64,000 nucleotides of DNA from Candidatus Nitrospira allomarina (lineage in GTDB: Bacteria > Nitrospirota > Nitrospiria > Nitrospirales > UBA8639): assembly GCF_032050975.1 (NCBI RefSeq), contig NZ_CP116967.1, positions 2,477,001-2,541,000 of the forward strand, written 5' to 3'. The translations under genes and the position numbers were made by a program. Positions 19,511 to 56,355 of the stretch are shown here, piece by piece; position 1 is the first letter of the stretch, and every line of letters begins with the position of its first letter. Under the pieces are notes generated by a model. It saw only the letters and a program-made list of their open reading frames with translations, ran no database searches and had not been told where the DNA came from.

Positions 19511-20512
19511 ATGGCTGTTCAGACCCTACCGTCCTCCGTGTGGTCCATCGTGTTGGCAGGTGGTGAAGGCGAACGGATTCGCCCCTCAATCCAGCAGTGG
19601 CTCGGGTACCCGGTTCCGAAACAATACTGCACCTTTGTCGGTACCCGTTCTATGTTGCAACATACGTGGGACCGGGCCGACCAAATCGGGCAGCCCAGGA
19701 AAAAAGTGACGGTTGTTGGTCGAACACATCAGCAGAGGTTGGAACATCATTGCACGAGGCAAGATGAAGGCACGCTGATCTTTCAGCCGCGAAATTGTGA
19801 CACGGCCCCGGGAGTGTTTCTTCCTCTTACTTACGTGAAAGCCTGGGATCCTCACGCGGTCGTGGTCCTTTTACCCGCCGATCATTTTATCTGTCCCGAA
19901 GATCGCTTTGTGTCGGCAGTGCGTCGGGCTGTGCGAGCAGTAGAATTTTTATCTGATCGAATGATTCTCATGGGCGTTCGTCCGTCTCATCTGGAGCTTG
20001 ATTATGGATGGATATCCGTCGGAGGAGTGCTCGGGTGGAGTGGAGGGACGTCTATTCGTCGCATCCAATCATTTGTAGAAAAGCCGGCGGCTCTTGATGG
20101 CAAGCGAATGATGTCAGAGGGAGCGTTGTGGAACACCCTGGTACTGGTGACCAAAGTCGAGACGCTGTGGAAATCCGGATGGTTGTGCTTTCCTGATATG
20201 ATGGATCGTTTTGAAGGGCTACGAAGGCAGATCGGGACTCCGGCCGAAGGTTCGACCCTCCAGGCTATGTATCAGGATATGCCTACACGAAATTTTTCCC
20301 GTGATGTCTTGCAACCTCTTGCCGGTCAATTAGGTGTCATGGAGCTTAATGATGTCACGTGGAGCGATTGGGGCCGGCCGGAACGAATTGTGGAGACTCT
20401 GCGATCAATAGGGAAAAAGCCTGCCTTTCCAATGGAGGCCTTTATGGGAGCGGGTGCGTCATTCAATACCCAAATTCCACAGGACATGGGTTATCCCTAT
20501 CTGAGCTGCTGA
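19511..20512 (+). CDS. Sugar-phosphate nucleotidyltransferase (mannose-1-phosphate guanylyltransferase-like)
   Basis: A 333-residue GT-A-fold nucleotidyltransferase. The N-terminal nucleotide-binding signature is SIVLAGGEGERIRP, followed by PVPKQYCTF (the PKQ lysine contacting the sugar phosphate), FQPRNCDTAPG and VVLLPADHFICP with the metal-binding DH. It resembles GDP-mannose pyrophosphorylases but lacks their C-terminal isomerase domain, and the sugar substrate is not certain. A close paralogue is at 52872-53939; the two share the NTAPGVFLPL-type segment, the MPTRNFS motif and the WSDWGRPERI end. A ribosome site CCAGGAGG precedes the ATG. Confidence 0.82.
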   Translation: MAVQTLPSSVWSIVLAGGEGERIRPSIQQWLGYPVPKQYCTFVGTRSMLQHTWDRADQIGQPRKKVTVVGRTHQQRLEHHCTRQDEGTLIFQPRNCDTAPGVFLPLTYVKAWDPHAVVVLLPADHFICPEDRFVSAVRRAVRAVEFLSDRMILMGVRPSHLELDYGWISVGGVLGWSGGTSIRRIQSFVEKPAALDGKRMMSEGALWNTLVLVTKVETLWKSGWLCFPDMMDRFEGLRRQIGTPAEGSTLQAMYQDMPTRNFSRDVLQPLAGQLGVMELNDVTWSDWGRPERIVETLRSIGKKPAFPMEAFMGAGASFNTQIPQDMGYPYLSC

Positions 20513-43412: not shown

Positions 43413-44105
43413 ATGGCTGCCACGGTATTAGTCGTCGATGATGAGAAGGATCTGGTGGAGTTGGTCAAGTATCACTTGGAAAAGGAAGGGCTCAAGTGCT
43501 TGGAAGCCCGTGATGGGGAAACGGCCTTGCAGATGGCAAGGGAACGTACTCCGGATCTTATGGTCTTGGATCTGATGTTGCCGGGGGTGGATGGTTTAGA
43601 GGTCTGCCGGAAGTTGAGGAAAGACCCGAAAACGTCTTCGATCGCCATTATTATGCTGACGGCGAAGGCCGAAGAAGTAGATCGGATTGTCGGGTTGGAA
43701 ATGGGGGCGGACGACTACATGGTAAAGCCCTTTAGCCCGAGGGAACTCCTCGCCAGAGTGAAAGCGGTGTTGCGGCGGGGACAGGGGCAGGACATGCCGG
43801 CGCTCAAACGGATTGGAACGCTCGAGGTCGATGAAGGCAAGCACCAGGTGACGGTGGACGGAACCGTGGTGGAGTTAACCGTCAAGGAATTCGATCTGCT
43901 CTGTGCGTTGATGCGGGCGAATGGCCGGGTCCTGAACCGGGAGCAAATATTGGAAACGGTATGGGGCTATTCCAATGCCGTGGATATAGAATCGCGAACG
44001 GTGGATGTGCACATTCGACGGCTCCGGGAAAAGTTAGGAAGCGAATGCCCACGCATTGTCACGGTCAAAGGTGTGGGCTATCGCTTTGAGTCAGGGACGG
44101 TCTAA
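43413..44105 (+). CDS. phoB: Phosphate-regulon response regulator (OmpR family)
   Basis: A 230-residue regulator: receiver domain (about 1-120; D-D in VVDDEKD, acceptor Asp in VLDLMLPG, K in YMVKPFS) joined to an OmpR-type winged helix (about 135-230; SRTVDVHIRRLREKLG). It lies directly before the sensor kinase and pst genes, which supports the PhoB assignment. It should bind 11-bp repeated Pho boxes when phosphorylated; such arrays lie before pstS and the second nucleotidyltransferase. GAGGAGAT precedes the ATG. Confidence 0.92.
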   Translation: MAATVLVVDDEKDLVELVKYHLEKEGLKCLEARDGETALQMARERTPDLMVLDLMLPGVDGLEVCRKLRKDPKTSSIAIIMLTAKAEEVDRIVGLEMGADDYMVKPFSPRELLARVKAVLRRGQGQDMPALKRIGTLEVDEGKHQVTVDGTVVELTVKEFDLLCALMRANGRVLNREQILETVWGYSNAVDIESRTVDVHIRRLREKLGSECPRIVTVKGVGYRFESGTV

Positions 44106-44134: not shown

Positions 44135-45517
44135 ATGCGTAATCCTTCGCTCATTCTTGTTGGTTGGATGGTGGCCTCCATGATCGGTGTGGGTGTGTCG
44201 GTTGCCTGGGCATGGCCATTCTGGGTGGTGGTTTCGTTGGGGGTTGGTCTGGTTGGCGTGGCGGTGTTGCTGACCCGGAACATATGGGATCAGACGAGAG
44301 AAAACCATGAAGATGTCATGACAGGCGTTCGTCAACTTGAACAGCTCAGCGGGATTGATGAGGCGAGGACTTCCCGTGTGTTGGAACCCGAGGCCTTTGG
44401 AGGCCATATCCAGCGCCTGGTGGAAAACGTGAAGAAACGTATGACCGGCCTCGAGGAAGAACGCACGAAAATTATTGCCATCATGGAAAATCTGGTGGAA
44501 GGGGTGGTGGCGTTTGATCCAAAGGGAAAGGTGTTATTCACCAATTCCAGCGCCCATCGAATATTGGGATTGGACGCTCAGGCGATTCAAGGACGATCGC
44601 TGTGGGAAATCATCAGAAATCAAGAACTGGCAGGTCTGGTTGAAGGTTGTCAGGAATTGGCGTGGCATGAACGACGACAGGCAGAGGTAGAATTGCATCC
44701 TCCCGTCTCCATGGTGTTAGAGGTCTATGCGCTCCCTTTTCCCTTTTCCAACCAGAAAAAGGGGAGCGTGCTGGTGTTACACGACGTCACCCAACTGCGT
44801 CGTTTGGAACAGGTACGGACGGAGTTTGTTGAGAACGTGTCCCATGAACTGCGAACTCCGCTGACGGCCATTGTCGGATATTTGGAAACGCTTGTGGATG
44901 AACCGTCATTGGAAACCCCAAACAATCGGAAATTTGTACAGGTTGCCCACCAACATGCCGTACGGCTCAGTCGGTTAGTAGAAGACTTACGCAGCCTCTC
45001 GGAAATTGAATCGGGAAAAGTCGTATTGCGTTGTGAATCGGTGCCGCTGTGTGAAGTGGCACAGGATGTCTCTGAGATGTTTCAGCATCAACTGTCGAAA
45101 AAAAATCTGCAGATCTCCAATAAAATCGGAGTCGCCCTTAGTGCCTGGGTTGATAGAGATCGGTTGATTCAGATTCTGGTAAATCTCGTGGATAATGCCA
45201 TTAAATATACGTCTGACGGAGGCACCATAACGTTTCAATCCATACCTTTGGGAGATGAGCGAATCTCATTGCAGATTAAAGATACAGGCCAGGGCATTCC
45301 TTCCACGGATCTTCCGAGGATTACCGAGCGATTTTATCGGGTGGATCGAGCGAGGTCCCGTGAAGAAGGCGGGACGGGCCTTGGGCTCTCCATTGTCAAG
45401 CATCTGCTTCAACTGCTCGATGGCAAACTTCGCATACAGAGTGAATTGGGTAAAGGCACCACCGTGGAGGTGATCCTGCCAATAGCCAGCCCCACTTCCT
45501 CAAGTCGATCTTTGTGA
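44135..45517 (+). CDS. phoR: Phosphate-regulon sensor histidine kinase
   Basis: A 460-residue kinase with two N-terminal transmembrane helices (about 3-24 and 27-46) and almost no periplasmic loop, as in PhoR, which senses phosphate through PstSCAB and PhoU. A PAS domain follows (about 115-225; IIAIMENLVEGVVAFD). Then comes HisKA with the phospho-acceptor His in VSHELRTPLTAIVGYLE and a HATPase domain with N, G1 and G2 boxes (DNAIKYTSDGG, DTGQGIP, GTGLGLS). It starts 29 bp after phoB. No strong ribosome site was seen at 44135. Confidence 0.92.
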   Translation: MRNPSLILVGWMVASMIGVGVSVAWAWPFWVVVSLGVGLVGVAVLLTRNIWDQTRENHEDVMTGVRQLEQLSGIDEARTSRVLEPEAFGGHIQRLVENVKKRMTGLEEERTKIIAIMENLVEGVVAFDPKGKVLFTNSSAHRILGLDAQAIQGRSLWEIIRNQELAGLVEGCQELAWHERRQAEVELHPPVSMVLEVYALPFPFSNQKKGSVLVLHDVTQLRRLEQVRTEFVENVSHELRTPLTAIVGYLETLVDEPSLETPNNRKFVQVAHQHAVRLSRLVEDLRSLSEIESGKVVLRCESVPLCEVAQDVSEMFQHQLSKKNLQISNKIGVALSAWVDRDRLIQILVNLVDNAIKYTSDGGTITFQSIPLGDERISLQIKDTGQGIPSTDLPRITERFYRVDRARSREEGGTGLGLSIVKHLLQLLDGKLRIQSELGKGTTVEVILPIASPTSSSRSL

Positions 45518-45582: not shown

Positions 45583-45599
45583 GTTACACAGTTGTAACC
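45583..45599. promoter_or_regulatory. Inverted repeat with an 11-bp-spaced Pho-like pair, upstream of pstS
   Basis: GTTACA-CAGT-TGTAAC is a perfect 6-bp dyad. Its two halves also give GTTACA and GTAACC at 11-bp spacing, the register of Pho boxes. It lies 66 bp past phoR. Whether it is a Pho site or another operator cannot be decided from sequence. Confidence 0.35.
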
Positions 45600-45714
45600 C
45601 GAACCTCACAGAGGTGAAATAGTCATTCGCTAGGATTCGATGGCAGGGTTAAATAATTAGACTGCCGAGCTTTTGAATTGTCACAAGTTGAGACGACCAT
45701 GACGGGAGAGGCCC

Positions 45715-45934
45715 ATGGGAACAACAAGCACAGAATGGATTGCTCCGGTTGATGTAGAACGGAAAGATCATGATCAGGTGTCAGCGGTCATTTCTGCCCG
45801 TCCGGGTGTGACGGTGCCAAAAGGAGTTTCAATTTGAAGTTCGGGCCATCCATCCGTCGTTAAACGGAAACGTGGAGAATGTCCTGGGGGGAAGCATTCC
45901 AGCAAACCCCGGAGATCGGTGGATGGGTATTTAA
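45715..45934 (+). pseudogene. Small unrecognised gene with an apparent one-base frameshift
   Basis: From an ATG after GGGAGAGG the frame reads 40 residues (MGTTSTEWIAPVDVERKDHD at the start) and stops at 45837. If one A is dropped from the AAAA run near 45820, the reading continues as VPKEFQFEVRAIHPSLNG and ends in PANPGDRWMGI at a TAA at 45934, giving about 72 residues. The composed sequence is protein-like. It could be a real gene with a sequencing error, a decayed gene, or chance. The stop overlaps the first Pho half-site. Confidence 0.4.
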
Positions 45935-45984
45935 CAAATTCGTAACATTGGCGTTACATAGAAGAAACTTGTTGGACCTACACT
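45931..45984 (+). promoter_or_regulatory. Pho-box array and promoter of the pst operon
   Basis: TTAACA (45931), GTAACA (45942), GTTACA (45953) and a weaker GAAACT (45964) repeat at exact 11-bp steps, followed by a -10-like TACACT at 45979. Eleven-base periodic half-sites before the -10 are how PhoB/PhoP dimers bind. It sits 28 bp upstream of the pstS start. Confidence 0.6.
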
Positions 45985-46011
45985 ATTTATTCACATGAGG
46001 AGGCATGATTG

Positions 46012-47025
46012 ATGAAACACAGTCAGAAACGAAAGCAAATGTGGTTGTTGGGCTTGGTGATAGGGCTGTTCATGGGCTGGACCTGGACCGCGATGCCTGG
46101 GGCCTCCACTGTTTGGGCCAAAGATGGGATGGAAGATCCCAATTGGATGAATTATGCCAGGGTGAGTGGCGTATCCGGAACCCTCAATAGCATTGGCTCG
46201 GATACCCTGAATAATCTTATGACGCTATGGGCTGAAGGATTCCGGAGGCAATACCCGAATGTCAAAATTCAAATTGAGGGAAAAGGATCAAGTACCGCTC
46301 CCCCTGCTCTCATTGAAGGAACAGCTCAATTGGGGCCGATGTCTCGTAAAATGAAGGGGAAAGAAATCGATGCTTTTGAGTCAAAGTTCGGTTATAAACC
46401 TACCGCCTTTCCGGTTGCGATAGATGCGTTGGCGGTCTATGTCAATAAGGATAATCCCATTCAAGGGATGACGATTGAGCAAGTCGACGCGGTATTTTCC
46501 ACGACCCGGCAGCACGGATATAAGGAAAGCCTCTCCAGTTGGGGACAATTGGGATTAACCGGAATGTTCGCCAATATGCCGATTAGTATCTATGGCCGGA
46601 ATTCGGCGTCGGGGACCTATGGGTTTTTCAAAGAAGTGGTGCTGGAAAACGGTGATTATAAAGATGAAGTGAAGGAACAGCCCGGTTCGGCTTCTGTCGT
46701 GCAAGGAGTGACTGAAGATCAGGCAGGGATCGGATATAGCGGTATTGGATATCGAACCTCGAGTGTCCATGCGCTTCCTCTTTCCATGAAAACAGGGCAA
46801 CCCTTTGTGGAGCCCACGTACGAAAATGCCATCAAGGGGAAGTACCCCTTGTCACGGTATTTGTTTGTGTATGTGAACAAAGCTCCCAATCAACCGTTGT
46901 CGCCGATTGTTCGAGAATTTTTGAAATATGTGTATAGCCGTGAAGGACAGAAGGTCGTCATTAAAGATGGCTATTTCCCCATCCCGGAAAAGATTATTGG
47001 GAAACAGTCAGAGCACCTCAAGTAG
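46012..47025 (+). CDS. pstS: Phosphate ABC transporter substrate-binding protein
   Basis: A 337-residue exported protein (signal peptide about 1-36). The phosphate-binding fold of PstS is clear: [46 protein letters not shown] (phosphate-contacting S and T), and [17 protein letters not shown] near residue 193. It delivers phosphate to PstC/PstA. The ATG at 46012 follows GAGGAGG by 8 bases; a TTG 3 bp upstream is less likely. It opens the pst operon, with the Pho-box array directly upstream. Confidence 0.95.
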
Positions 47026-52028: not shown

Positions 52029-52688
52029 ATGAAACGACATTTTGATGATTCGTTAGCGGATCTCAGACAGAGAATTTTGCGCATGGGAGCGCTCGTTGAG
52101 GGCCAAATTCGTCAAGCCCTTACCGCACTTGTGGACCGTGATGATGTCGTGGCCAATCAGGTCATTCAGAATGATCGTCAGGTGAATACGATGGATGTGG
52201 TCATCGACGAACTTTGCCTCGAATTGTTGGCGCTCCACCAACCTGCGGCGAAGGACCTTCGGTTTGTCACGACCGCCATGAAAATTTCCACAGAATTAGA
52301 GCGTATGAGCGACTTGGCCGAAAATATCTGTGAGCGTGCCATCGAACTGCATGCCGAACCTCAATTGAAGCCGTACATCGATATTCCGCTCATGGCTGAG
52401 CGTGCCATTAAAATGGTGGGAGAAGCCCTTGATGCGTTTGTGCGAGGGGATTCGGTACTTGCCAGACAGGTCCTCAACGAGGATGACTATGTGGATGAAC
52501 TGAATGAACAAATATTTCGCGAACTATTGTCTTTTATGATGGAAAATCCCCAAACAATTTCGCGTGCCATCCGGTTATCATTTATCTCCAAATACATTGA
52601 GCGGATCGCCGATCATGCGACAAATGTGGCGGAACTGGTTGTGTATATGGTTGAAGGGAAAATTATCCGTCATATGAATCCAACCTGA
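52029..52688 (+). CDS. phoU: Phosphate transport system regulatory protein
   Basis: A 219-residue PhoU with two three-helix repeats and the acidic metal-binding clusters seen in the family (MKISTELERMSDLAENICERA and ISKYIERIADHATNVAELV; E/D-rich motifs of each repeat). PhoU links the Pst transporter to PhoR and restrains the Pho response when phosphate is plentiful. It ends the pst operon. Confidence 0.95.
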   Translation: MKRHFDDSLADLRQRILRMGALVEGQIRQALTALVDRDDVVANQVIQNDRQVNTMDVVIDELCLELLALHQPAAKDLRFVTTAMKISTELERMSDLAENICERAIELHAEPQLKPYIDIPLMAERAIKMVGEALDAFVRGDSVLARQVLNEDDYVDELNEQIFRELLSFMMENPQTISRAIRLSFISKYIERIADHATNVAELVVYMVEGKIIRHMNPT

Positions 52689-52763
52689 CTCTGTTTTCCT
52701 GCCTGCTGTTTTCTCCTCCCCATTTTCTCTTGTTGGTGTGTTCTCCCTCAAGCTTCCTAGCGT

Positions 52764-52819
52764 CTGTCACAAAAAATTTACCTGTCTGTGACAGGAGTGT
52801 CATTTCCCAAACGTATAGT
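52764..52819 (+). promoter_or_regulatory. Pho-box-like promoter of the second nucleotidyltransferase
   Basis: Half-sites TGTCAC (52765), TGTGAC (52787) and TGTCAT (52798) lie in an 11-bp register (one position at 52776 is unmatched). The last is 10 bp from a -10-like TATAGT (52814-52819), the usual Pho promoter geometry. The outer pair CTGTCAC/GTGACAG is also a perfect inverted repeat. It is just downstream of phoU. Confidence 0.58.
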
Positions 52820-52871
52820 GTGGGTATGAATGATCCTCAATATACACAACCACTTGCGGAAGGAGAATGGT

Positions 52872-53939
52872 ATGCAAAAATGGATTGACACCCGCGGAGG
52901 TTCCTCACCGTATTCCCAAGGTCAGGTTACTCCGTTACGTTTACAGGGCCCTGGTTCGCTGTGGTCCTTGGTCCTGGCAGGTGGACATGGGGAACGCCTT
53001 CGGGAATATACCGAACAGCGTTTCGGTGCCTATCGACCAAAGCAATATTGTGCGTTTATGGGAAAACGTTCGATGATTCAACATACCTGGAGGCGGGCGA
53101 AAGCCCTTTGTCTTCCTCATCAGGTTGTAACGGTGATGGACCAATCACACTGGGGTTATGTACGGACACAATTGATCCAGGAATCCCTTGGACGGGTGGT
53201 CTGGCAACCTGATAACCGAGGAACCGGACCCGGTGTGTTTCTGCCCCTCTCCTATATTCGAACGCATGATCCTCATGCCACGGTGGTTCTATGGCCTTCT
53301 GATCATTTCATTTTCCCCGTTGAGCCGATGATTCAAGTGGTTCATGATGCGGTGGCCTTTGTCCAGGAGCACCCGCACCGTATGGTGCTGTTGACTGTTC
53401 CTCCTCAATCGCGAGACCAGGACTATGGGTGGGTGATTCCAGGTGCTCGTGTCTCGCATCCGGGAGGGGTTCAGGTCAGGGAAGTGCGAAGATTTGTGGA
53501 AAAACCAGATGGATCCCAGCTAGAGGACATTGCCTTGAGTGGAGGGCAATGGAATACGTTGGTGTTGATTGCCAACGTTCAAACTTTATGGGAAGCTGGA
53601 CGTCAGTGTATTCCGGAGGTTGTGATGCCTCTTGAAGACCATGCGGGTGGGATTGGGACCTCAAGCGAACATCAACGTTTACTGCATCTCTATCGAACGA
53701 TGCCCACGAGAAATTTCTCGAGCGATCTCTTATCGCTGATTCCTCAGCAATTACATATGATGGATTTGACCGAGGTCTATTGGAGTGATTGGGGAAGGCC
53801 AGAGCGCATTCAGGAAACTATCGCGTGTATGAGGCGCCGTGAACTCTGTGGAGTTGCTAATGAGGCGGTTGGCCGGGTTTGGACGAAGTCCCGTCAAAAC
53901 GAGACGGTTCAGGAGGAATGCACCGTTGTTATGGGCTAG
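52872..53939 (+). CDS. Sugar-phosphate nucleotidyltransferase, paralogue of 19511-20512
   Basis: A 355-residue GT-A nucleotidyltransferase. Signature LAGGHGERLREY is followed by PKQYCAF, WQPDNRGTGPGVFLPL and VVLWPSDHFIFP with the DH metal site. The last shared segments are MPTRNFSSDL and WSDWGRPERI. It resembles mannose-1-phosphate guanylyltransferases without the isomerase part. The ATG at 52872 is chosen because AGGAG precedes it by 6 bases; an in-frame ATG at 52830 is poor. A Pho-box-like promoter is upstream, so phosphate limitation may control it, perhaps to alter surface sugars. Confidence 0.82.
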   Translation: MQKWIDTRGGSSPYSQGQVTPLRLQGPGSLWSLVLAGGHGERLREYTEQRFGAYRPKQYCAFMGKRSMIQHTWRRAKALCLPHQVVTVMDQSHWGYVRTQLIQESLGRVVWQPDNRGTGPGVFLPLSYIRTHDPHATVVLWPSDHFIFPVEPMIQVVHDAVAFVQEHPHRMVLLTVPPQSRDQDYGWVIPGARVSHPGGVQVREVRRFVEKPDGSQLEDIALSGGQWNTLVLIANVQTLWEAGRQCIPEVVMPLEDHAGGIGTSSEHQRLLHLYRTMPTRNFSSDLLSLIPQQLHMMDLTEVYWSDWGRPERIQETIACMRRRELCGVANEAVGRVWTKSRQNETVQEECTVVMG

Positions 53940-54195: not shown

Positions 54196-56355
54196 TCAGA
54201 AGGAAAGCGGCTTGGTGTACTTTCCTTTCCAGTTTGCAATAAACCAATCTTGAGCATGAAATGGTGCTTCATGCTCCAAAGGCTTGACGCGAGTATAGGT
54301 TCCATCGGGTTGGAGTTGTCGCGTGTGCATGTTATCTTTCAGGTAGGGACGCAAAACGGTTTCAACAATGAAGGCTCGGAGTGTGGGACTCTCAATCGGA
54401 AACAAAATTTCAACCCGACGGTCCATATTGCGAGGCATGAGATCCGCACTTCCCAGAAATAATTCATCCTGCCCTCCGTTACCAAAATAATAACAGCGGG
54501 AATGCTCGAGGAATCGTCCGACGAGAGACGTGACCGTAATGGTTTGGCTGAGCCCAGGAACCCCAGGGCGGAGCCCGCACATTCCACGGACCATGAGTTC
54601 AATCTTGACTCCTGCTTGAGAGGCTCGATACAAGGCCTGAATTGAGGCTTTGTCGACGAGAGAATTTACCTTGAATGCCAGGTAGCCGTCTCCATGTTGT
54701 TGTTGGCGGGATATTTCCCGATTGATTCGCTCGATGATATTCGTTCGAATTCCGACCGGCGCAATCAAAAGTTTCGCGTAGGAGTCTTTTTTTGAATACC
54801 CGGTCAAGGCATTGAACAGATCGGTGACATCTTCGCCGAATACCGGATGACAGGTAAATAAACTGAAATCTGTATAGAATTTGCTGGTGATGGGATTGTA
54901 ATTGCCGGTTCCGAGATGCAGATAGCGACGAATGCCATCTGATTCACGACGAACGACCATGCAGACCTTGGCATGTGTTTTCAGGCCCAGGACACCATAC
55001 ACCACATGGACGCCTTCATCTTCTAGTTTTCTTGCCCATTCAATATTATTTTCCTCATCGAACCGGGCTTTGAGTTCCAAGAGTACGGCAACCTGCTTGT
55101 CATTTTGGCGGGCTTCCATGAGGGCGTCTACCACAGGGGAGTTGATGCCTACTCGATAGAGTGTCTGCTTAATGGCTAACACCTTCGGATCCAGAGCGGC
55201 TTGTCGAATGAAATCCACGACGGGTGAGAAGCTGTCGTATGGGTGATGAAGGAAGATGTCTTCCCGTTTGATGAGTGAAAATAATGACTCCTTGGAGGTG
55301 GGGTCGTGCAGAATATTGGGGAAATGGGGTGAAAATTTCAGATCCGGTCGGTCAATGGCTGTGAGTTCAAGGAGATTCGATAGGCCGAGACGGAAGTCAT
55401 AGGTGTAAACCTGATAGGGCGCTAAACTCAGATTTCTGACCAGGATATCTTTAATGGAATCGGGCATATGCCGGTCCAGTTCCAATCGCACCACCGAACC
55501 GAATTGGCGTAAATCAATTTGTTCCTCAATGGCAGCCAGCAGATCGCCGGCTTCATCTTCCTCAATTTCAAAATCCGCATCCCTGGTAATGCGAAAATAA
55601 TAGGAGGCCTGAATTGTCAAACCCGGAAACAATAAGTCCAGATTGGCGGCGATGATGTCCTCCAGCCACACAAAGTTGGTGCTTTCCGCTCCGGTGGCTA
55701 ACCCCATTTGTTCATCGTCTGATACCTGCGATTCGTCTGGAATTCTGATTAATCTTGGAAACAACGACGGAACCTTAATGCGTGCAAAACATTCCCCACG
55801 CTCGGGGTCGTTCGCCACGACGGCCAGGTTGACCGTGAGGTTGGAGATATGGGGGAAAGGGTGGCTGGGGTCAAAGGCCAAAGGCGTCAACGCGGGAAAA
55901 ATTTCTTTTCGAAAATATCGGCGGAGAAGGGATCGTTGTTTGGGTTTGAGGTCTTGATAGGCCAGAATGCAAATATGTGCTTGCGCCAGACGCGTCAGAA
56001 GGTCATCCTGCCAACATTGGGTGACACGGGAAAAACTGCGGAGAAGGGCGTCCCGGATTTGGCCCAATTGATCGGACGGACTCATCCCATCCAGAGCGGC
56101 TTCCAGAACGCCGCTGGACAATTGCTCGCGTAATCCTGAAATTCGGATCATGAAAAATTCATCAAGATTATTGAAGAATATGGAAAGGAATTTAATTCGT
56201 TCCAGTAATGGATGGCTCGGATCTTCTGCCTCTTCCAGTACCCGTTTATTGAACTCCAGCCAGCTCAGTTCCCGGTTCAGGTACAGCTTGGGGTCATCAA
56301 GATTATCGATAACCTCAGATTGATTGGGTGCCTTCGGTTTTATCTGATGAGTCAT
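54196..56355 (-). CDS. ppk1: Polyphosphate kinase 1
   Basis: A 719-residue PPK1 of usual length, which makes polyphosphate from ATP at the membrane. N-terminal block NRELSWLEFNKRVLEEA, the active-site histidine in YLHLGTGNYN about two-thirds along, LKTHAKVCMVVRR and LMPRNMDRRVEILFPI near the end are family hallmarks. It lies convergent to the nucleotidyltransferase. The ATG at 56355 has a palindrome, ACCTCA-N-TGAGGT, about 45 bp upstream. It anchors the polyphosphate section with CHAD, Ppx and SixA genes. Confidence 0.97.
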   Translation of the reverse strand: MTHQIKPKAPNQSEVIDNLDDPKLYLNRELSWLEFNKRVLEEAEDPSHPLLERIKFLSIFFNNLDEFFMIRISGLREQLSSGVLEAALDGMSPSDQLGQIRDALLRSFSRVTQCWQDDLLTRLAQAHICILAYQDLKPKQRSLLRRYFRKEIFPALTPLAFDPSHPFPHISNLTVNLAVVANDPERGECFARIKVPSLFPRLIRIPDESQVSDDEQMGLATGAESTNFVWLEDIIAANLDLLFPGLTIQASYYFRITRDADFEIEEDEAGDLLAAIEEQIDLRQFGSVVRLELDRHMPDSIKDILVRNLSLAPYQVYTYDFRLGLSNLLELTAIDRPDLKFSPHFPNILHDPTSKESLFSLIKREDIFLHHPYDSFSPVVDFIRQAALDPKVLAIKQTLYRVGINSPVVDALMEARQNDKQVAVLLELKARFDEENNIEWARKLEDEGVHVVYGVLGLKTHAKVCMVVRRESDGIRRYLHLGTGNYNPITSKFYTDFSLFTCHPVFGEDVTDLFNALTGYSKKDSYAKLLIAPVGIRTNIIERINREISRQQQHGDGYLAFKVNSLVDKASIQALYRASQAGVKIELMVRGMCGLRPGVPGLSQTITVTSLVGRFLEHSRCYYFGNGGQDELFLGSADLMPRNMDRRVEILFPIESPTLRAFIVETVLRPYLKDNMHTRQLQPDGTYTRVKPLEHEAPFHAQDWFIANWKGKYTKPLSF

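Follow-up and report, generated by a model that had tools for sequence, protein, structure and literature searches.

A predicted PhoB-type operator-promoter before a ManC-like nucleotidyltransferase gene in a Nitrospira genome

Four 11-bp direct repeats followed by a -10 hexamer lie between phoU and the gene of a short sugar-nucleotide nucleotidyltransferase, in the 64-kb stretch of DNA analysed here (the window, G000:C1:2477001-2541000 of a 4,553,057-bp single-contig genome). Judged from their sequence, they very probably constitute a PhoB-type operator-promoter, by which PhoB would activate the genus-specific nucleotidyltransferase gene from a promoter of its own under phosphate starvation.

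Under this proposal, phosphate starvation would activate the neighbouring PhoR/PhoB pair, and PhoB, once phosphorylated, would occupy the four repeats in head-to-tail order just 5' of the -10 hexamer. There it would stand in for a -35 element and recruit RNA polymerase, and transcription of the gene would begin at a start of its own, some 45 nt 5' of ATG 52872. The encoded enzyme, which is ManC-like and has no isomerase domain, would supply GDP-mannose or a relative, a sugar nucleotide that may be destined for an envelope glycan, an exopolysaccharide or a phosphate-free glycolipid. PhoB-type activators replace the -35 contact, in agreement with the title of a work cited by PMC4415409. That article describes their head-to-tail binding to 11-nt direct repeats; it also states that several of the confirmed Pho boxes stand at genes that are not obviously regulated by phosphate.

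The box and its neighbourhood

The phoBR-like genes sit just upstream of pstS, and the box begins about 76 bp after the phoU stop codon, on the same strand (Table 1), a position just downstream of phoU that the first-pass annotation had already pointed out.

Table 1. Features of the locus and of related sites. Positions are those of the window unless another frame is named.
Feature	Position	Strand	Evidence or remark
phoB-like response regulator gene	43413..44105	+	best NCBIfam model PhoB TIGR02154, 267 bits versus a cut-off of 296
phoR/pnpS-like sensor kinase gene	44135..45517	+	two best models PnpS (366 bits, cut-off 400) and PhoR (305 bits, cut-off 334), both below the curated cut-off
Second Pho-box-like site, phoR-pstS gap	45583..45636	+	one mismatch to pattern; matrix
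pstS promoter box, TTAACAAATTC / GTAACATTGGC / GTTACATAGAA / GAAACTTGTTG + 4 bp + TACACT	45931..45984	+	
pstS	46009..47025	+	TIGR02136, 257 bits, cut-off 207
pstC, pstA, pstB	start 47116, 49446, 51091, respectively	+	assigned from position and sequence
phoU	52029..52688	+	TIGR02135, 238 bits, cut-off 130
Pho-box-like operator, four 11-bp repeats GTCACAAAAAA / TTTACCTGTCT / GTGACAGGAGT / GTCATTTCCCA	52766..52809	+	pattern, matrix, conservation
Predicted -10 hexamer TATAGT	52814..52819	+	TATGGT, TACCGT or TGCCGT in some relatives
Shine-Dalgarno GGAAGGAG	52858..52865	+	slightly altered but retained in relatives
Short ManC-like sugar-nucleotide (GDP-mannose-type) nucleotidyltransferase gene	52872..53939	+	355 aa
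ppk1	54196-56355	-	downstream of the nucleotidyltransferase gene
CYTH-CHAD gene		-	after ppk1
Paralogous nucleotidyltransferase gene	19511..20512	+	44% identical; no Pho box by these models
One-mismatch site before CBS-domain gene, then PsiE-family gene	L108 5120-5173, G000:C1:2696119-2696172	-	
One-mismatch site before Porin_O_P gene	L108 7900-7953	-	phosphate-selective porin family
Pho-box-like site before second pstS-like gene	L108 13471-13524	+	second pst cluster
One-mismatch site before Slp-like outer-membrane lipoprotein gene	L109 5305-5358, G000:C1:3675804-3675857	-	

The half-sites GTCAC, TTTAC, GTGAC and GTCAT begin at 52766, 52777, 52788 and 52799, each 11 bp from the next, the second being without the G. 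An AACG spacer separates the last repeat from TATAGT. The first-pass annotation had claimed TGTCAC, TGTGAC and TGTCAT in an 11-bp register, with TATAGT 10 bp from the last. All three hexamers were found (52765-52770, 52787-52792 and 52798-52803), in steps of 22 and 11 bp, the 22-bp gap being filled by a weaker ATTTAC (52776-52781), and the distance to TATAGT was confirmed. PMC4415409 describes a Pho box as a pair of 11-nt direct repeats and names CTGTCAT as the E. coli motif with the highest conservation; the operator in Table 1 contains at least two such repeats with a conserved core. Chains of four KTNAY half-sites at period 11 occurred once on the two strands of the window, at 52766, and at periods 8, 9, 10, 12, 13 and 14 none was found on either strand; this half-site definition was chosen after the site was seen. 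A scan of 52600-52950 with the sigma-70 consensus gave no promoter-like pair on the + strand.

The start codon is most probably ATG 52872. The open frame has its first ATG at 52830, but this one was set aside, as the Shine-Dalgarno sequence and the constant box spacing favour 52872: the distance from the box to this ATG is identical in 12 of the 14 orthologous promoters described below, and 1 bp longer in the other two.

A motif common to pstS and other phosphate-type loci

According to the first-pass annotation, the half-sites found here and those before pstS could not both match one strict motif. This claim had to be abandoned, because the pstS promoter shows the same layout. Shifting the earlier register by one base turns both boxes into four [GT]TnA[CT]-type half-sites at 11 bp, the fourth of the pstS box being GAAAC, and in both the -10 begins 48 bp after the first base. 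Both fit the single IUPAC pattern KTNAYM-N5-KTNAYM-N5-KTNAYM-N5-KWNAY-N10-TANNNT with zero mismatches. Since this pattern was written after both boxes were seen, their perfect match is not independent evidence; the other pattern matches, the backward control and a matrix trained on pstS are.

A box was present 5' of pstS in all 21 pstS loci fetched from 20 genomes of the genus, with the layout [GT]TAACA-N5-GTAACA-N5-GTTACA-N5-GA[AC]AY and a -10 that begins 48 bp after its first base, single letters varying in some of the loci. The scoring matrix was built from pstS sites only (18 distinct, the window's own included). With it, the nucleotidyltransferase box scored 12.9 and ranked fourth among 127,894 window positions, behind the window's own pstS site (46.5), the same site moved by one repeat, and the site at 45583 between phoR and pstS. 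A score of at least 12.9 was reached in 3 of 200 simulated first-order Markov windows. The box thus has the motif and the layout of the window's own pstS promoter. No positive-scoring site was seen 5' of phoB, where an autoregulation box might stand, among the 25 sites listed.

The site in the phoR-pstS gap is itself conserved, with scores above 7 in 19 of the 21 pst loci and 6.2 in G003; none was found in G001, whose contig begins about 310 bp before pstS. By eye, a related small open reading frame (..VLAVISASPGVTIEALLEHLPWMRWGHLFSILGECLQEGSVILCQKEF..) of 79-137 aa follows it in 17 of the 21 loci, two of the 17 being apparently frameshifted. The one in G010 had no Pfam match and is perhaps winged-helix-like. 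In the window (45715-45837), just a 40-aa frame is left.

Allowing up to two mismatches, the pattern matched 10 times in the 4.55-Mb genome, versus 0 for the backward control. The zero-mismatch matches to this 54-bp pattern were only those of pstS and of the nucleotidyltransferase gene. Among the four one-mismatch matches, three were at phosphate-type loci and one preceded the Slp-like lipoprotein gene, whose product scored 21.0 bits with PF03843, under the 22.5 cut-off. The Porin_O_P gene with a site is one of two, and adjoins the second pst cluster. In E. coli, psiE is under Pho and cAMP-CRP control, as stated in an excerpt of PMC4415409. The remaining four matches had two mismatches each; L106 lies before a trypsin/PDZ-type protease gene, and the other three (L104, L105 and L107) may be due to chance. 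A stricter pattern of three half-sites matched only pstS, the nucleotidyltransferase gene and the Slp-like gene, the control giving 0. Sites that closely resemble the one before the Slp-like gene were seen in G010, G012, G003 and G014.

Across the genus (20 genomes, counting this one), 72 matches with at most one mismatch were found, and 0 with the backward control. Twelve of these, in 11 genomes, are boxes of the nucleotidyltransferase gene, that of G011 preceding a degraded copy; G019, G009 and G002 have boxes with more mismatches, which are not counted in the 72. Of the 12 second-pstS matches listed, nine were fetched as loci, and the pstS matrix revealed a box in each of the nine.

Conservation of the box and rival readings

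Conservation in relatives is the strongest evidence that the site exceeds chance. The gene is present in 13 of the 20 genomes, own included, at E 1e-90 or better, with 73-88% identity in the other 12. Seven genomes are without an ortholog at this threshold, among them G011, which retains the box and a degraded remnant (L065). The ortholog is disrupted in G009 (L016) and G002 (L017), and the box persists in all three of these drafts, where either gene decay or assembly error may be at work. In nine ortholog pairs compared, dN/dS was 0.10-0.19, and the gene is under purifying selection; synonymous sites differed by 27-61%, which gives a scale for promoter conservation.

Fourteen orthologous promoters from 13 genomes (two in G018) were compared, none being dropped, and the box was kept, above background, in all 14. 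The mean majority fraction was 0.97 for the 16 core letters and 0.88 for the other box letters, against 0.60 for the 50 bp upstream; it was 0.70 for the 4-bp spacer, 0.86 for the -10 and 0.82 for the 36 bp after it. In the five diverged promoters, invariant letters numbered 14/16 in the core, 13/28 in the rest of the box, 2/50 upstream and 22/46 downstream. A clear contrast exists only with the upstream flank, because the leader after the -10 is also fairly conserved. The -10 reads TACCGT or TGCCGT in 4 of the 14 promoters. Taken together, matrix, pattern and conservation support a Pho-box promoter belonging to the nucleotidyltransferase gene itself, as the first-pass annotation had predicted.

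The gene could instead be the last of a pst-phoU operon, transcribed by read-through, with the box as a relic or a fine-tuner. It does follow phoU closely on the same strand, and the scan of 52600-52950 gave no terminator-like site between phoU and the box, the sole flagged stem being inside the box. However, in G017 (L114) the distance from phoU to the box is 4,387 bp, an interval whose open frames lie on both strands and include genes for an Slp lipoprotein and a TPR protein, and there the box stays with the gene. Moreover, conservation is much higher in the box than in the sequence 5' of it. We therefore consider read-through as the main route improbable, but it may act together with the gene's own promoter. 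Open frames resembling those of G017 also lie 5' of the box in G004 (L115), where phoU was found neither on the box contig nor elsewhere in the draft. In two genomes without an ortholog, phoU is followed on the same strand by a PpnN-type gene according to a family scan (G008), or by a look-alike of it (G015).

Two other readings accept the element but give it another partner or another shape. OmpR-family regulators bind 10-11 bp direct repeats, and a member of this family other than PhoB might recognise the box, 13 of whose 28 non-core letters are invariant in the diverged promoters. Yet the same motif and geometry precede pstS in 20/20 genomes and occur at 9/9 second-pstS loci fetched, at the PsiE locus and at the Porin_O_P locus, and phoBR-like genes sit just upstream of pstS, which makes a different regulator quite unlikely, even more so than read-through. 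Alternatively, the functional element could be the inverted repeat CCTGTCtgtGACAGG (52781-52795), acting as a hairpin, a terminator or a palindromic operator. It was flagged as terminator-like on both strands, its 6-bp arms are perfect in 6 of the 14 promoters (the window and five others), and four more differ by G-T pairs only, which an RNA hairpin would tolerate. Nevertheless, true mispairs are found in the remaining four (G016, G019, G013 and G009), so that 8 of 14 have no perfect palindrome, whereas the direct-repeat core is present in 14/14. The hairpin or terminator reading of CCTGTCTGTGACAGG was rejected, because perfect arms are kept in some relatives only, while the direct repeats are kept in all, and we give the inverted repeat hardly any credit as the functional element. 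The PhoB-type operator-promoter is the reading that we retain.

The enzyme and comparison with known systems

The nucleotidyltransferase belongs to the PF00483 superfamily (3.3e-17, 63.3 bits, gathering cut-off 21.2). Its best NCBIfam model, GMP_PMI (TIGR01479), gave 73.1 bits, versus the 372.95 needed to call it a ManC equivalog. At E 1e-5, the solved relatives found by sequence were only the mannose-1-phosphate guanylyltransferases 2x5s, 2cu2 and duplicates. An AlphaFold2 model (mean pLDDT 80.5, ends 1-26 and 327-355 unreliable) had as best fold matches the GDP-mannose pyrophosphorylases 2x65/2x5s of Thermotoga maritima and 2cu2 of Thermus thermophilus; the top one, 2x65, was at E 3.5e-19, with a TM-score of 0.69-0.73 and 20% identity over the aligned fold. 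Lower ranks were taken by pyrophosphorylases for UDP-glucose and ADP-glucose and by GlmU. The motifs GG.G.R, PKQ, SDH, YGW, FVEKP, WN and SDWG are present; those which we take to serve nucleotide binding and the metal site are largely retained in a 19-row alignment.

The genome holds three shorter paralogues, 40-44% identical to the boxed enzyme, and a canonical bifunctional ManC at G000:C1:2913667 (532 bits, cut-off 373). Upstream of the paralogue at 19511, the best listed sites scored -2.7 on the same strand and 3.9 on the opposite one, none being found at the thresholds used, and the 22 loci of unboxed homologues that were scanned (L002-L005, L018-L034, L045) had no site scoring 5 or more. 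In a tree made by a quick method, 11 boxed genes grouped as a single clade (SH-aLRT 100) with a long stem of 1.88 changes per column, and the 20 unboxed rows, among them the ManC outgroup, lay outside it.

The first-pass annotation had called the product a GDP-mannose-type enzyme. Homology and fold agree with this as far as family is concerned, but, with 73 bits against a cut-off of 373 and a canonical ManC elsewhere in the genome, its substrate may be a different one. As that canonical ManC exists, the boxed enzyme would be either a starvation isoform or one that uses another sugar or nucleotide. A GDP-mannose product with an envelope role is a tentative proposal, a little less likely than not, and the first-pass annotation, which offered envelope or exopolysaccharide changes as a possibility only, was right in this caution. 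Somewhat less likely still is that a genus-specific nucleotidyltransferase split from ordinary ManC-like paralogues, was brought under the control of PhoB, and now produces a sugar nucleotide that serves only in phosphate starvation. If it were so, a phosphate-free surface glycan or glycolipid, for example, might replace phosphate-bearing envelope parts in these Nitrospira relatives.

The analysis offers a usable Pho-box model for this group, consisting of a -10 preceded by four half-sites of the [GT]TnA[CT] type spaced 11 bp apart, and names a few predicted members of the regulon. If true, the proposal would tie phosphate stress to the supply of surface sugars in the group, and the boxless paralogue at 19511 is a ready internal control. 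Among the matches listed for literature on the Nitrospira Pho regulon or Pho box, none was a published Pho-box model for these relatives, and there was no apparent report among those listed for a Pho box or PhoB with mannose-1-phosphate guanylyltransferase or GDP-mannose. A term search did not find the word phosphate in the main text of a marine Nitrospirales genome paper (PMC10579370).

ManC (TIGR01479; Thermotoga maritima 2x5s/2x65) and the window protein have a common motif set, and 2x65 is also the best fold match. Unlike ManC, the window protein has no isomerase domain, carries N- and C-terminal extensions of its own, and reads WNT where the canonical ManC of the same genome reads WNSG. 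As for its control, an excerpt of PMC4415409 reports that PhoB acts on pssA, a surface-polysaccharide biosynthesis gene of Rhizobium leguminosarum. The proposed action of PhoB on a surface-sugar gene resembles that case; however, pssA catalyses the first step of a known exopolysaccharide pathway, whereas here a sugar-nucleotide enzyme stands without a known pathway partner. The principle is not new, because Pho control of surface polysaccharide is already known in other bacteria. Like the PhoB/PhoP Pho boxes of E. coli and others, the box consists of 11-bp direct repeats with a half-site near TGTCA, lies directly 5' of a -10 with no recognised -35 on this strand, and is of a type found before pstS and other phosphate-type genes. 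It differs from the E. coli Pho box in having four repeats and a looser [GT]TnA[CT] core. We regard it as a convincing addition to a control system that is already well known, not as a system of a new kind.
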